32,812 nt of DNA. Origin: Streptosporangiaceae bacterium (GTDB lineage Bacteria > Actinomycetota > Actinomycetes > Streptosporangiales > Streptosporangiaceae). The position numbers were made by a program, and so were the translations under genes. Where the stretch lies: assembly GCA_030038495.1 (NCBI GenBank), contig JASHOV010000035.1, positions 1 through 32,812 on the forward strand. The letters run 5' to 3'. Shown here piece after piece: positions 8,552 through 12,418 of this stretch. The notes beneath the pieces are model-generated. The model saw only the letters and a list, made by a program, of their open reading frames with translations, was not told where the DNA came from and did not search any database. The first letter of the stretch is position 1; every line of letters starts with the position of its first letter.

Positions 8552-9640
8552 TCAGCTCTCCTCGTCCTGCTGTCCTCGCTCGCGCGCCCCCGGGTCCCGC
8601 GTCGAAGCGTTCTGTCCCGTTATGTGGGCGAATGGTCCCACCGTGGCTCCGGCCTCGATGACACTTGCCTCACATACCGATTTCAGCACGGTTGCGCCCG
8701 GCCCTACAGTCGCAGCCCGCAGCAGGCAGCCAGGACCGATGCTGGCGCCGGCGCCGACGAACGTGCTGCCTTCGAGCTGCGTGCCCGGCCCGATCCGCAC
8801 GCCCGGCTCCAGCCTCACGTCAACGTCGATCCAGGTACTGGCCGGATCCATGATCGTGACCCCGGCGGCCATCCAGCGCGCGAGCAGCCGCTCGTTCAGC
8901 ACCCGCCGGGCCCTGGCCAGCTGAGCCTGGTCGTTCACGCCCTGAACCTCGTCGAAGTCCGCGCACAGGGCGGAGCCGATCTTGTGACCGTCGACGTACA
9001 GGATCGCGGGGACGTCGGTGAGGTACTCCTCGCCTGCCGCGTTCGCGGTGGGCAGGCGCTTGATCGCGTCCGCGAGCAGGTCGCCGTCGAAGGCGAACAT
9101 GCCCGAGCTGACCTCCGTGATCCGGCGCTGCTCGGCGGACGCGTCGGCCTCCTCGATGATCCCGGTCACCTGGCCGGCCTCGTCCCTGATGATGCGGCCG
9201 TATCCGGTGGGGTCAGGCGCCTGCGCGGTCAGGACCGTGACGGCCGCGCCCGATCCCTCGTGCCGGGCCGCGAGCATGGCCAGCGTCTCGCCGCGCAGCA
9301 TGGGTGTGTCGGAAAACACCACGATGACGGAGCCGTGAAAGGCACCGAGAGTCTCGACCACGGTCCGGACGGCGTGCCCCGTTCCCCACGATCCGTTGCG
9401 CTCCTGCACGACAACCGCCGCCTGCGGGCAGTGCTCGCCGGCGTACCTGGCGACCTGGCCCTTCGCGTCACCAACGACGATCACCGTGCGCTGCGGGCGG
9501 AGGTCGGCCGCGGCCGCCATGACATGGCCGAGCATCGTCCGGCCGCAGACCTCGTTGAGCATCTTCGGGAGGGCTGCCCGCATTCTGGTGCCCTCGCCCG
9601 CCGCCAGGATGATGACGGCGGCCGGACCGCTCGAACTCAC
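8552..9640 (-). CDS. glmU: GlmU-type UDP-GlcNAc pyrophosphorylase lacking the acetyltransferase half
   Basis: The N-terminal half is a GlmU uridylyltransferase, which makes UDP-GlcNAc from GlcNAc 1-phosphate and UTP. It has IILAAGEGTRMRAALPKML, GTGHAV, SDTPML, TGYGRIIRD, GEEYLTDVPAI and EVQGVND in the expected order. The left-handed beta-helix begins near residue 265 and stops at AGATVGPFA (about residue 335), where normal GlmU continues with RLRPG. A 25-residue polar tail then ends the protein at 362 residues, against about 450-490 normally. The GNFVEVK region with the catalytic His, and the acetyl-CoA-binding coils, are therefore absent. The loop before GTGHAV (QERNGSW) is also two residues longer than usual. 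The next base stretch is prs with its own RBS, so there is no room for a frameshifted remainder. The GTG 9640 start has GAGGAG 9 bases upstream. Uridylyltransferase activity is likely; acetyltransferase activity is not. Confidence 0.85.
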   Translation of the reverse strand: MSSSGPAAVIILAAGEGTRMRAALPKMLNEVCGRTMLGHVMAAAADLRPQRTVIVVGDAKGQVARYAGEHCPQAAVVVQERNGSWGTGHAVRTVVETLGAFHGSVIVVFSDTPMLRGETLAMLAARHEGSGAAVTVLTAQAPDPTGYGRIIRDEAGQVTGIIEEADASAEQRRITEVSSGMFAFDGDLLADAIKRLPTANAAGEEYLTDVPAILYVDGHKIGSALCADFDEVQGVNDQAQLARARRVLNERLLARWMAAGVTIMDPASTWIDVDVRLEPGVRIGPGTQLEGSTFVGAGASIGPGCLLRAATVGPGATVLKSVCEASVIEAGATVGPFAHITGQNASTRDPGARERGQQDEES

Positions 9641-10140: not shown

Positions 10141-10212
10141 TCCCGGGTCGTCTAATCGGCAGGACGGAGTCTTTTGGTGTCTCTAACCGAGGTTCGAATC
10201 CTCGCCCGGGAG
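10141..10212 (+). tRNA. tRNA-Gln (anticodon TTG)
   Basis: This 72-base cloverleaf has acceptor arms TCCCGGG/CCCGGGA with G73, the typical Gln discriminator. The D stem is GTCT/GGAC. The anticodon stem-loop is 10167-10183 with loop TTTTGGT, giving anticodon TTG (reads CAA). The variable loop is TAAC, and the T arm is CGAGG-TTCGAAT-CCTCG. CCA is not encoded. The anticodon stem has a T/T mismatch at its fourth pair (10170/10180); the other stems pair fully. Position next to glmU matches other Actinomycetota. Confidence 0.93.
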
Positions 10213-10250
10213 CTACTTGAGCAGCGCGTTAAGCGAAGTGGTGTCAAGGC

Positions 10251-11102
10251 TTAGAACTGGTCCGGCACTGTCATCGCGGCCGCAGCCCAGCCCTCTATCT
10301 TGCGGTACAAATCGGCGCTCCGCAGAACGTCGATGATCAGGCACCCGTGGTAGCTCTCGCCAGTGTTCTTGCGTACTGTCTTCGGGTTATGCCGCTTGAG
10401 AGTTGGCCTGCGGAACTGCTCGGGCTTGAGTCCAGTGACGTCAAGCCAGAACTGCTGGGAGCGCCCGACATCCGCCGTCTCGTGGATATGCACACGGCAG
10501 GCGAGCCGGTCGGGCTCGACTCCGGCAACATGGAGGAACCGGAGAAAGAAGAGGATCAGCCTCGGGTCGCTATTGACGAACTGGACGCGATCATATGGCC
10601 GGTGGGGCTTCCTCTTGGATCCTTCACACCAGTAGGCAATCGCCCCAGCTATCAGGATCTCGTGGTCATTCAGCTCGCCGATCTGAGCGGCGGCGGCGGC
10701 GACATCCTCGCGCCGCTCGGCCTCCTTGATCACGCGCCGCTCCCGGAAATATGCGGCAGTGCCTTCGGCGCTCCGGCGGCGTGACTCCTCGTAGCTCAGC
10801 CGGCCCGGTCGAGGCAGATCGCGCACCCAGAGCGAGATCGACCCTTTCGACACGCCAAGCTCCGCGGCTATCTCGTTGTATGTGAGTCCTTGGGCCCGGA
10901 GCTCGCGAGCTTTGGCATGGCGCTCGTCCTTCGCGCGAGGGCGCCGAGTCCACTCGGGCGGAGGTACGCCGCGTAAGGCCTTGCCCAGCGTCTCATTGCT
11001 GCCGATGCCGAGGATGTCCTTGATCTCGCGCCGGGACTTGCCGGCCCGGCGGAGGGCGATTGCTTGCTCTCTGAGCTGCGAGTAATCCAGTTTAGCGGTC
11101 AT
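10251..11102 (-). CDS. Helix-turn-helix protein with possible LAGLIDADG-like C-terminal domain
   Basis: This 283-residue protein has no function I can name. Residues about 8-45 look like one helix-turn-helix (ALRRAGKSRREIKDILGIGS). Residues about 62-95 form a clearer second one (ARELRAQGLTYNEIAAELGVSKGSISLWV), of the kind seen in resolvases and Mor/terminase-like proteins. The C-terminal half (about 150-275) contains AGAIAYWCEGSKR, VQFVNSDPRLILFFLRFL and RVHIHETAD, and ends near LYRKIEGW. This pattern resembles diverged LAGLIDADG homing-endonuclease domains, but the acidic motif spacing is not canonical. It ends 38 bases after the 3' end of tRNA-Gln and points toward it. Its DNA is poorer in GC than its neighbours: two 60-base stretches I counted are 58% and 60%, against 72% for one in the desaturase. 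Acquisition by transfer is plausible. Alternatives are a DNA-binding regulator or a remnant of a mobile element. Confidence 0.6.
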   Translation of the reverse strand: MTAKLDYSQLREQAIALRRAGKSRREIKDILGIGSNETLGKALRGVPPPEWTRRPRAKDERHAKARELRAQGLTYNEIAAELGVSKGSISLWVRDLPRPGRLSYEESRRRSAEGTAAYFRERRVIKEAERREDVAAAAAQIGELNDHEILIAGAIAYWCEGSKRKPHRPYDRVQFVNSDPRLILFFLRFLHVAGVEPDRLACRVHIHETADVGRSQQFWLDVTGLKPEQFRRPTLKRHNPKTVRKNTGESYHGCLIIDVLRSADLYRKIEGWAAAAMTVPDQF

Positions 11103-11386: not shown

Positions 11387-12418
11387 ATGAGCACAGCCAC
11401 AGAGAGCCGCAACGACACAGCGGCGACACCGCCGGCCGGGACCCGCACCCCGGTCGGCGACCTGAGAGCAGAACCGAAGGGGAACGGCGAGAAGGTGCTC
11501 GTCGGCGTCTTCGTCGCCATCCCGATGCTGGCCTTGCTGGCCGCGATCCCGCTGGCCTGGGGCTGGGGGCTGGGCTGGCACGACGTCATCATCGCGATCG
11601 CGTTCTATTACTTCACCGGCCTCGGCATCAGCGTCGGCTTCCACCGCTACTTCACCCACGGTTCCTTCAAGGCCAGGCAGCCGCTCCGGACCCTGCTCGC
11701 GATCGCGGGGTCGATGGCCATCGAGGGCCCCGTCCTCACCTGGGTCGCCGACCACCGCCGGCACCACAAGTACAGCGACAGGGAAGGCGACCCGCATTCG
11801 CCGTGGCGGTTCGGCGATGACTGGAAGGCCCTCGCCAAGGGACTGGCCTGGGCCCACATCGGCTGGCTGTTCGATGACAATCACACGTCGCAGGAGAAGT
11901 TCTGCCCGGACCTGCTGGCCGACCGCAGGATCGCCAGGGTCTCCCGTTGGTTCCCGGCCCTGGTAGCGGTGTCGCTGCTGGCGCCCGCCCTGATCGGCGG
12001 CCTGTGGTCCTGGTCGTGGCAGGGCGCGGTGACCGCGTTCTTCTGGGCGAGCCTGGTCCGTGTAGCGTTCCTGCACCACGTGACCTGGTCGATCAACTCG
12101 ATCTGCCACACCTTCGGCAAGGAGGAGTTCGAGGTCAGGGACAAGTCGAGGAACGTGAACTGGCTGGCGATCCTGTCGTTCGGCGAGTCCTGGCACAACC
12201 TGCACCACTCCGACCCGACCTGCGCCAGGCATGGCGCCCTGCGCGGCCAGATCGACACCGCGGCCCGCCTGATCTGGCTGTTCGAGAAGGCCGGCTGGGT
12301 CTACGACGTGCGCTGGCCGGACGAGACCCGGCTCAGCCCGCGGCAGACCAGCGAGCGGCGACTGGGCGCGATGACCCGGCGTGCGGCAACGCAGCCAATT
12401 CGCGAGCCGCAGGCATGA
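11387..12418 (+). CDS. Fatty acid (acyl-CoA) desaturase
   Basis: This is an integral-membrane di-iron desaturase, probably introducing a delta-9 double bond into acyl-CoA or lipid acyl chains. It is 343 residues and carries the three histidine boxes: HRYFTH (86-91), HRRHH (123-127) and HNLHH (270-274). Hydrophobic segments lie around residues 38-60, 65-85, 100-120 and 185-225. GDPHSPW and FLHHVTWSINS are also typical. There is no fused cytochrome b5 or ferredoxin domain, so an external reductase is needed, as with mycobacterial DesA3. AGGAT lies 3-7 bases before the ATG. The TetR gene follows after 16 bases, so the two are probably co-transcribed. Confidence 0.93.
   Translation: MSTATESRNDTAATPPAGTRTPVGDLRAEPKGNGEKVLVGVFVAIPMLALLAAIPLAWGWGLGWHDVIIAIAFYYFTGLGISVGFHRYFTHGSFKARQPLRTLLAIAGSMAIEGPVLTWVADHRRHHKYSDREGDPHSPWRFGDDWKALAKGLAWAHIGWLFDDNHTSQEKFCPDLLADRRIARVSRWFPALVAVSLLAPALIGGLWSWSWQGAVTAFFWASLVRVAFLHHVTWSINSICHTFGKEEFEVRDKSRNVNWLAILSFGESWHNLHHSDPTCARHGALRGQIDTAARLIWLFEKAGWVYDVRWPDETRLSPRQTSERRLGAMTRRAATQPIREPQA

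Follow-up and report, generated by a model that had tools for sequence, protein, structure and literature searches.

The gene on the minus strand at positions 10,251 to 11,102 probably encodes a free-standing (intronless) LAGLIDADG homing endonuclease that would cut foreign alleles of a tRNA gene and spread together with a functional tRNA allele of its own which withstands it; both the cutting and this self-resistance we infer. This reading draws on the conservation of catalytic-type residues in the protein, on the patchiness, decay and exchange of the gene, on a signal centred on the tRNA, and on the diversity of the tRNA where the gene lives.

The gene, its place and its product

The window, i.e. 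the whole stretch of 32,812 nt which was analysed, holds these features around the gene:

10251..11102, minus strand: gene of an HTH-HTH-LAGLIDADG protein, 283 aa, ATG start, probable free-standing homing endonuclease (ORF list, Pfam, AlphaFold2, VIA-align, profile search)
10977..11084, minus strand: first helix-turn-helix (HTH) segment, residues 7-42 (AlphaFold2 helices 7-19, 24-31, 36-42; HTH_7 in two stretches)
10824..10928, minus strand: second helix-turn-helix, residues 59-93 (Pfam HTH_23, residues 67-95; model helices 59-70, 75-82, 86-93)
10680..10793, minus strand: long linker helix, residues 104-141 (AlphaFold2 model)
10272..10667, minus strand: predicted LAGLIDADG-type domain, residues 146-277, with the single motif AGAIAYWCEGSK (VIA-align, profile of relatives)
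10614..10625, minus strand: catalytic-type residues E160 (codon 10625-10623) and K163 (codon 10616-10614) (alignment to I-DmoI E117/K120; invariance in 91 loci)
10141..10213, plus strand: tRNA-Gln(TTG), the linked allele and second half of the cassette, inverted here with respect to glmU (tRNA call)
10214..10250: 37-bp spacer between the tRNA 3' end and the stop of the gene (sequence)
8552..9640, minus strand: flanking glmU, C-terminal part missing (NCBIfam GlmU, profile 2-341 of 488)
11387..12418, plus strand: flanking fatty acid desaturase gene (Pfam FA_desaturase)

Gene and tRNA-Gln(TTG) lie tail to tail. The outer base of the stop codon is 38 positions beyond the 3' end of the tRNA (10,251 versus 10,213), exactly as a preceding sequence-only reading had it. 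That reading had also called the gene poorer in GC than its neighbours, which is true of the gene as a whole: it has 63.7% GC, compared to 68.4% for the desaturase gene, 70.2% for glmU, 67.6% for prs and 69.5% for the window, and a GC3 of 0.775 versus 0.92, 0.87 and 0.94 for desaturase, glmU and prs, respectively. The two 60-base stretches quoted at the time are weak alone, with overlapping ranges for windows of this size (0.52–0.77 in the gene, 0.57–0.80 in the desaturase gene). Among the neighbours identified, glmU and prs lie to one side, the desaturase and a TetR/FasR-type regulator gene to the other. GlmU of the window lacks the acetyltransferase end; similarly short glmU open frames of 369–385 aa occur in three congeneric genomes (G006, G007, G008), and others are longer. 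On another contig of the same assembly (G000:C443:4572-7217), 18 tRNA matches form a dense array which resembles phage-borne tRNA arrays.

In the window protein, Pfam gave a match to HTH_23 over residues 67–95 (31 bits, cut-off 24.6) and one to HTH_7 in two stretches (24.6 bits). An AlphaFold2 model (22 sequences, pLDDT 89.5) is laid out as HTH 7–42, HTH 59–93, a long helix 104–141 and an alpha/beta domain 146–277; matches and model helices thus bear out the two HTH segments recognized before. By structure comparison the second HTH is like the HTH of SIRV1 ORF55, of IstA and of a serine recombinase. The motifs WCEGSK (residues 158–163) and FVNSDP (175–180), which had been assigned to one domain, indeed both lie inside the C-terminal domain.

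For this domain a LAGLIDADG-like character had been suggested. In VIA-align, I-DmoI filled the top 12 rows (best Z 7.5, rmsd 2.4, 85 aligned, 21% identity), with model residue 143 corresponding to residue 100 of I-DmoI, so that E160 falls on E117 and K163 on K120; these two residues of I-DmoI we take to be catalytic. The modelled domain has an extra helix (212–223) between its third and last strand. I-DmoI again came first (Z 7.6) for a second model, made from a member of a group of relatives linked to tRNA-Asn (pLDDT 88.8); the window model matched the second domain of I-DmoI and the tRNA-Asn-group model the first. VIA Z values below 8, as all of these are, are weak alone, but the sequence profile agrees: a profile of distant relatives found I-DmoI among PDB sequences at E 0.0036, with YwaEGaK aligned to YVAEGDK, and the mutant entries of I-DmoI scored worse in this search (E 0.19 for E117A, E 0.45 for K120M). 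Furthermore, E160, K163, N177, D179 and H207 are invariant in 91 loci (92 alignment rows, the window being present twice). The distant relative L398 has a D at the position of E160.

Among the families listed for the window protein, and among the best 25 of 58 for 19 relatives, there is no Pfam LAGLIDADG model; Pfam, NCBIfam and PHROGs (best 25 of 48) returned essentially HTH families for the window protein, with no nuclease domain over residues 146–277, and neither the WhiA model nor a GIY-YIG family is among its listed Pfam matches. Foldseek alone yielded no match at E < 0.001 for the window model; its first rows, OmpA/MotB-like domains, had E > 0.01 and were rejected as misleading. The comparison with LAGLIDADG families by structure and HMM, which the sequence-only reading had proposed, turned out positive for the fold and for the profile of relatives. 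Model and profile support a predicted LAGLIDADG-type, I-DmoI-like C-terminal domain. As there is one LAGLIDADG motif per protomer, the protein would be expected to act as a homodimer.

Occurrence, tRNA linkage and decay

Homologues are found patchily across the Actinomycetota. A first scan had them in 17 of 60 genomes, the window's own included. The raw count was 19, and the matches in G023 and G026 (E about 1e-4) were removed; these are HTH-only and have no tRNA, hence 17 is the fairer number. Homologues were present in 61 of 394 genomes in a scan of the class, and any match at all was seen in 111 of 199 genomes of one genus, g48, which is probably Streptomyces. In a scan of the phylum 56 of 396 genomes matched at E<=1e-5, 18 of them with a best E above 1e-8 and mostly in the HTH only. 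It yielded at least 30 loci, among them 21 new ones, and all 21 adjoin tRNA genes: four are at tRNA-Gln with glmU, ten at tRNA-Asn(GTT), five at tRNA-Lys(CTT) and two at tRNA-Glu(TTC). The relatives at tRNA-Asn, tRNA-Lys and tRNA-Glu are tied to those tRNAs without glmU.

From all scans 163 distinct gene loci were fetched (matches with at least 60 bits, whether intact or decayed). A tRNA lies within 400 bp in 159 of these (median distance 46 bp), therefore the adjacency of gene and tRNA is not due to chance. The nearest tRNA is Gln(TTG) in 138 cases, Asn in 11, Lys in four, Glu in three, and Val, Leu and Pro in one each; in the Pro case (L410) a tRNA-Lys is located on the 3' side at nearly equal distance. 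It is the 3' end of the gene that faces the nearest tRNA in 154 of the 159 loci. Of the four loci that break the 400-bp rule, two lie at contig ends (L017, L091); in L133 the gene is split, with the end of its larger piece slightly more than 400 bp away from the tRNA, and in L045 a second gene copy sits between the first copy and the tRNA. Two gene copies in one open frame, the second adjoining the tRNA, were observed both in L040 and in L045 (Actinomadura parmotrematis and Allonocardiopsis opalescens).

Three IMG/VR contigs classed as viral (L378, L379, L380) hold distant relatives beside tRNA-Leu, tRNA-Val and tRNA-Glu, and a phage reservoir is one possible meaning of them. No relative of the window protein was found in the viral collection, in phage records or in plasmid records, and two distant relatives had no match in phage records. 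In phylogenetic trees, which took in 91 of 100 gene/GlmU pairs, the gene forms family clades, and identities of gene and GlmU between families correlate with r 0.83. Since the gene thus largely follows descent between families, spread over long range must be rare or old, and frequent transfer between families was dropped as an explanation.

Presence and absence of the gene at the tRNA in related strains had been named as a point to check, and full and empty sites indeed exist in close species. The gene is located outside any intron or intein. In the full/empty pairs L298/L281, L291/L240 and L307/L268 the glmU side is 96% or 87% identical, the gene is absent from one member, and the tRNAs differ by 0.24–0.37. 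In the first scan, the usual order without an intact gene was desaturase, about 300 bp, tRNA-Gln, about 150 bp, glmU, and the tRNA was co-directional with glmU in 33 of 34 genomes in which both were seen (one of the 34 holds a relic). L155 (G021) was the sole gene-less genome seen with an inverted tRNA-Gln; there, 3 kb separate tRNA and glmU. Among full sites the prevailing arrangement is gene(+), tRNA(+), glmU(+), with 91 of 119 loci (one genome, L030/L119, being counted twice). Of 109 loci that bear the gene and have a known orientation, 11 have the tRNA opposed to glmU. The tRNA alone is inverted in seven loci of the window's type (one genome twice); in eleven loci from other Streptosporangiales-like genomes the gene is inverted with its tRNA-side place, and the tRNA lies either way. 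Both tRNA orientations occur also among the tRNA-Asn relatives (L398 and L400 versus the rest). A head-to-head duplication of gene and tRNA in L266 (G541) was discarded, as it is a palindrome in the stretch read and probably an assembly artefact.

The idea of a foreign gene beside a tRNA holds with regard to adjacency. As a framing it overlooks what matters most: the tRNA itself appears to be part of what moves, and the location is conserved throughout the class. A place conserved across the order combined with normal codon use had been stated as an outcome which would speak against the earlier reading; the codon use is not normal, judged by the GC3 given above, and a conserved place is no refutation of a homing element, which by its nature keeps one site.

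Within g48, the gene exists intact, decaying, or down to about its last 36 bp. About 26 of the 111 genomes with a match have it split, short or with an internal stop; among the 88 genomes without a match, 80 were searched for glmU, which was found in 77, and 49 places were read. A 36-bp block matching the last codons of the gene, which was spotted by eye in the output of a promoter scan, i.e. chosen post hoc, and then counted, is kept in 27 of 29 genomes without the gene and in 16 of 16 relics. It is located about 50 bp from the tRNA and contains two boxes of strong conservation; no shuffled sequence came close to it. Because 27 of 29 absent genomes keep this block, the gene was probably once there. 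Judged from this conservation, the 3' end of the gene is probably held by selection, most simply as carrier of the tRNA promoter. A sigma-70 consensus scan for such a promoter gave nothing at the threshold used. Endonuclease genes of phage T4 with embedded host promoters are said to be retained for that reason (PMC2988022). Intact copies are under purifying selection, with a median dN/dS of 0.27 (604 g48 pairs) versus 0.20 for glmU and 0.095 for prs. Recoding of amber codons was considered for a few copies with TAG and dropped, as TGA, TAA and frameshifts occur too.

Exchange of gene and tRNA between close species

Third-position distances among 40 g48 genomes correlate with r 0.63 between glmU and prs, but only with r 0.32 between the gene and glmU and r 0.39 between the gene and prs, although glmU is the nearest neighbour, about 200 bp away. 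The weak correlation of the gene is explained by replaced blocks, as in the pairs L295/L311 and L302/L313. In both pairs glmU is 92–100% identical and the upstream side mostly > 90% (100-bp windows; for L302/L313 the upstream alignment covers the last 1.7 kb only, so that its outer boundary is partly seen), and windows around the tRNA are 53–83% identical. Identity within the gene goes down to 48–83% in L295/L311; in L302/L313 it is 99% at the gene start and 74–91% further on. Two other families give similar pairs. In f21 (L083/L084) the flanks are mostly 94–100% identical, the gene goes down to 0.70 and the tRNA window to 0.85. In f16 (L077/L094) glmU is at 0.84–0.95, the tRNA window at 0.51 and the gene at 0.45–0.80; nothing aligns upstream, and the outer boundary is unseen. 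The replaced block in close species is about 1 kb long, holds gene and tRNA, and ends before glmU; differences of up to 44% are seen between the tRNA alleles of these pairs. In L084/L086 the tRNA is nearly the same (0.98) and the gene is at 0.54–0.85, hence the two are not always transferred jointly.

When the gene is divided into windows of 40 codons, the correlation with the tRNA is 0.05 at the gene start, 0.01–0.26 in between and 0.54 at the gene end; with the first glmU codons it is 0.01. The signal of exchange has its centre at the tRNA and the 3' gene end, a pattern like co-conversion of flanking markers that falls with distance, seen here in natural sequences and not in a cross.

The tRNA-Gln(TTG) gene itself is strongly diverse in g48. 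Between the same 40 genomes it differs by 0.30 on average and by up to 0.49, and its distances follow neither glmU (r 0.07) nor prs (r 0.06; both not significant). With the gene they do correlate, modestly (Mantel r 0.27, p 0.0005, the permutation ignoring relatedness). Among 114 g48 genomes, 12 tRNA clusters resulted at the chosen cut, three of which consist of one row. Genomes with an intact gene are spread across many clusters, 20 of 29 absent genomes fall into one, and gene status is associated with cluster (permutation p 0.0005, n 85, relatedness again ignored). We also compared close pairs, defined by a glmU third-position distance below 0.2 and non-independent of each other, and scored their tRNAs as different above 0.15. 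This was the case in 28 of 28 intact/absent and 5 of 5 intact/decayed pairs. For the remaining kinds of pair the figures are 2 of 6 (intact/intact), 9 of 12 (absent/decayed), 4 of 5 (decayed/decayed) and 5 of 14 (absent/absent).

Two controls were included. For tRNA-Gln(CTG), the best match is 86–100% identical in 39 of the 40 genomes above, with no match in G521; in g48 this tRNA comes in two classes, about 95–100% and about 86% identical to the query. In genus g34, probably Mycobacterium, tRNA-Gln(TTG) is 94–100% identical in 76 of 78 genomes, 61 being identical to the query, and of the two outliers (incomplete assemblies, 72% and 84%) one has a partial 82% match and one has none. The three scans included a few g34 members and did not find the gene in them; two of these members gave weak HTH-type matches (E about 1e-6). 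Twelve divergent alleles (ten g48 clusters, the window's and that of L032) share the anticodon, the T-arm core and U1-A72, presumably an identity element of Gln tRNA. Double compensatory changes are present in 15 of 22 predicted tRNA pairs among them; nine of the 22 pairs are each disrupted in one to five alleles, chiefly in the anticodon stem, a gapped part of the alignment. In the complete genome G057 the typed tRNAs include no second tRNA-Gln(TTG); three class-I-sized and ten longer matches are untyped there.

Interpretation and comparison with known systems

From these results the following cycle can be proposed. A protein with two N-terminal HTH DNA-binding segments, presumably acting as a homodimer, would recognise and cut a tRNA-Gln(TTG) allele of the recipient that is unlike its own. 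Repair from the donor would then copy the donor tRNA allele together with more or less of the nuclease gene, which is the exchange pattern observed, and gene and tRNA would travel as one cassette. The donor tRNA would be spared by its differing sequence, with the essentials of a Gln tRNA kept. Once nothing is left to invade, copies may decay; the 3' end remains, as observed in g48, and this leftover probably holds the tRNA promoter. In the lineage of the window the tRNA or the whole unit has become inverted, probably via error-prone repair of breaks. Relatives may act likewise at tRNA-Asn, tRNA-Lys and tRNA-Glu, where adjacency is observed; the evidence for exchange comes from the tRNA-Gln loci.

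On a wider scale, it is an even question whether this is one phylum-wide family of chromosomal homing endonucleases, each subfamily tied to one tRNA (Gln, Asn, Lys, Glu and, on contigs classed as viral, Leu, Val and Glu), with the tRNA allele as immunity factor. Repeated invasion would then keep sharply different alleles of a core tRNA in circulation across species, comparable to an incompatibility locus, and a tRNA promoter embedded in the gene would account, in one genus, for the 3' relic. Core tRNA genes are usually regarded as slowly evolving and vertically inherited. Here, a selfish nuclease cassette appears to have replaced the tRNA-Gln(TTG) gene repeatedly, in a tract of some 1 kb, so that core translation genes are apparently swappable between species by a tiny selfish element. 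This would give a translation gene the allele pattern of an arms race and possibly explains the strongly divergent tRNA alleles of sister species. With full, decayed, relic and empty states in a single genus, probably Streptomyces, the homing cycle becomes directly testable.

Alternatively, the protein could act on RNA, cleaving or blocking tRNA-Gln of other types, with the linked tRNA as resistant antidote; such a toxin-antidote pair would spread because its loss, or the lack of the right tRNA, is harmful. Linkage, allele diversity and compensatory changes are accounted for as well as by homing. We nevertheless consider it unlikely, in view of HTH segments that bind DNA, a LAGLIDADG fold with residues of the DNA-cutting type, an exchange signal that fades along the gene with distance from the tRNA, the pattern expected of break repair, and the loss of the gene in many species.

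A regulator had been the second option of the sequence-only reading, next to a free-standing homing-type nuclease. A domesticated, WhiA-like regulator of the tRNA or of glmU, kept beside its target, would fit the HTH segments, the purifying selection (dN/dS 0.27), the stable place and the appearance of WhiA in one fold list (Z 5.9, for the tRNA-Asn-group model). Invariant residues of active-site type would hardly be expected of it, nor would matches in only 111 of 199 g48 genomes with about 26 damaged, tRNA alleles that are swapped along with the gene, and relatives at other tRNAs without glmU; it appears quite improbable. About as improbable is passive linkage, in which the gene is a bystander at an ordinary recombination hot spot or a spot for accessory genes. 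tRNA genes are common recombination and integration sites, g48 recombines, with r(glmU, prs) only 0.63, and the tRNA differs also in the 5 of 14 close pairs in which both lack the gene. However, one protein family sits at each of several tRNA types, the strong tRNA diversity is missing in g34, where the gene was not found, and weaker in tRNA-Gln(CTG) of the same genomes, and the exchanged tract stops before glmU. The homing-type nuclease is the option favoured by the I-DmoI-like domain, the invariant residues, the patchy presence and the exchange between close species.

We found no report of such a tRNA-linked cassette in openly accessible full texts, among which most subscription papers are missing. 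In behaviour, though not in family, SegB of phage T4 comes closest, a GIY-YIG free-standing homing endonuclease encoded between tRNA-Arg and tRNA-Ile. SegB is reportedly required for the preferred inheritance of the T4 tRNA region. It belongs to a phage genome and phage tRNAs, whereas the window system combines LAGLIDADG with HTH on a bacterial chromosome, involves a core tRNA for which no second copy was found, and has different subfamilies at different tRNAs; with its modelled LAGLIDADG catalytic domain, the window protein is not of the SegB type. SegB is described in a review as free-standing among tRNA genes, its target being listed as a tRNA intergenic region (PMC2988022).

With I-DmoI, an archaeal LAGLIDADG homing endonuclease, the window protein has the domain fold and the catalytic-type E/K in common. 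I-DmoI carries two LAGLIDADG domains in one chain and is intron-encoded, whereas the window protein has one motif, HTH segments and no intron. WhiA is a domesticated LAGLIDADG protein, with the LAGLIDADG domain first, the HTH last and no known nuclease activity. In the window protein this order is reversed (HTH 7–93, LAGLIDADG 146–277) and the catalytic-type residues are kept. Like the window protein, WhiA/DUF199 joins a LAGLIDADG-related domain to an HTH in Actinomycetota (PMC3781837, PMC11701221). For Mycobacterium, HNH endonuclease genes inside horizontally acquired tRNA clusters are described (PMC6582537). As in the window, a homing-type gene is found there among tRNAs in Actinomycetota; yet those genes are of the HNH type and lie in extra tRNA arrays thought to be phage-derived, whereas here a core tRNA appears to be replaced in place.
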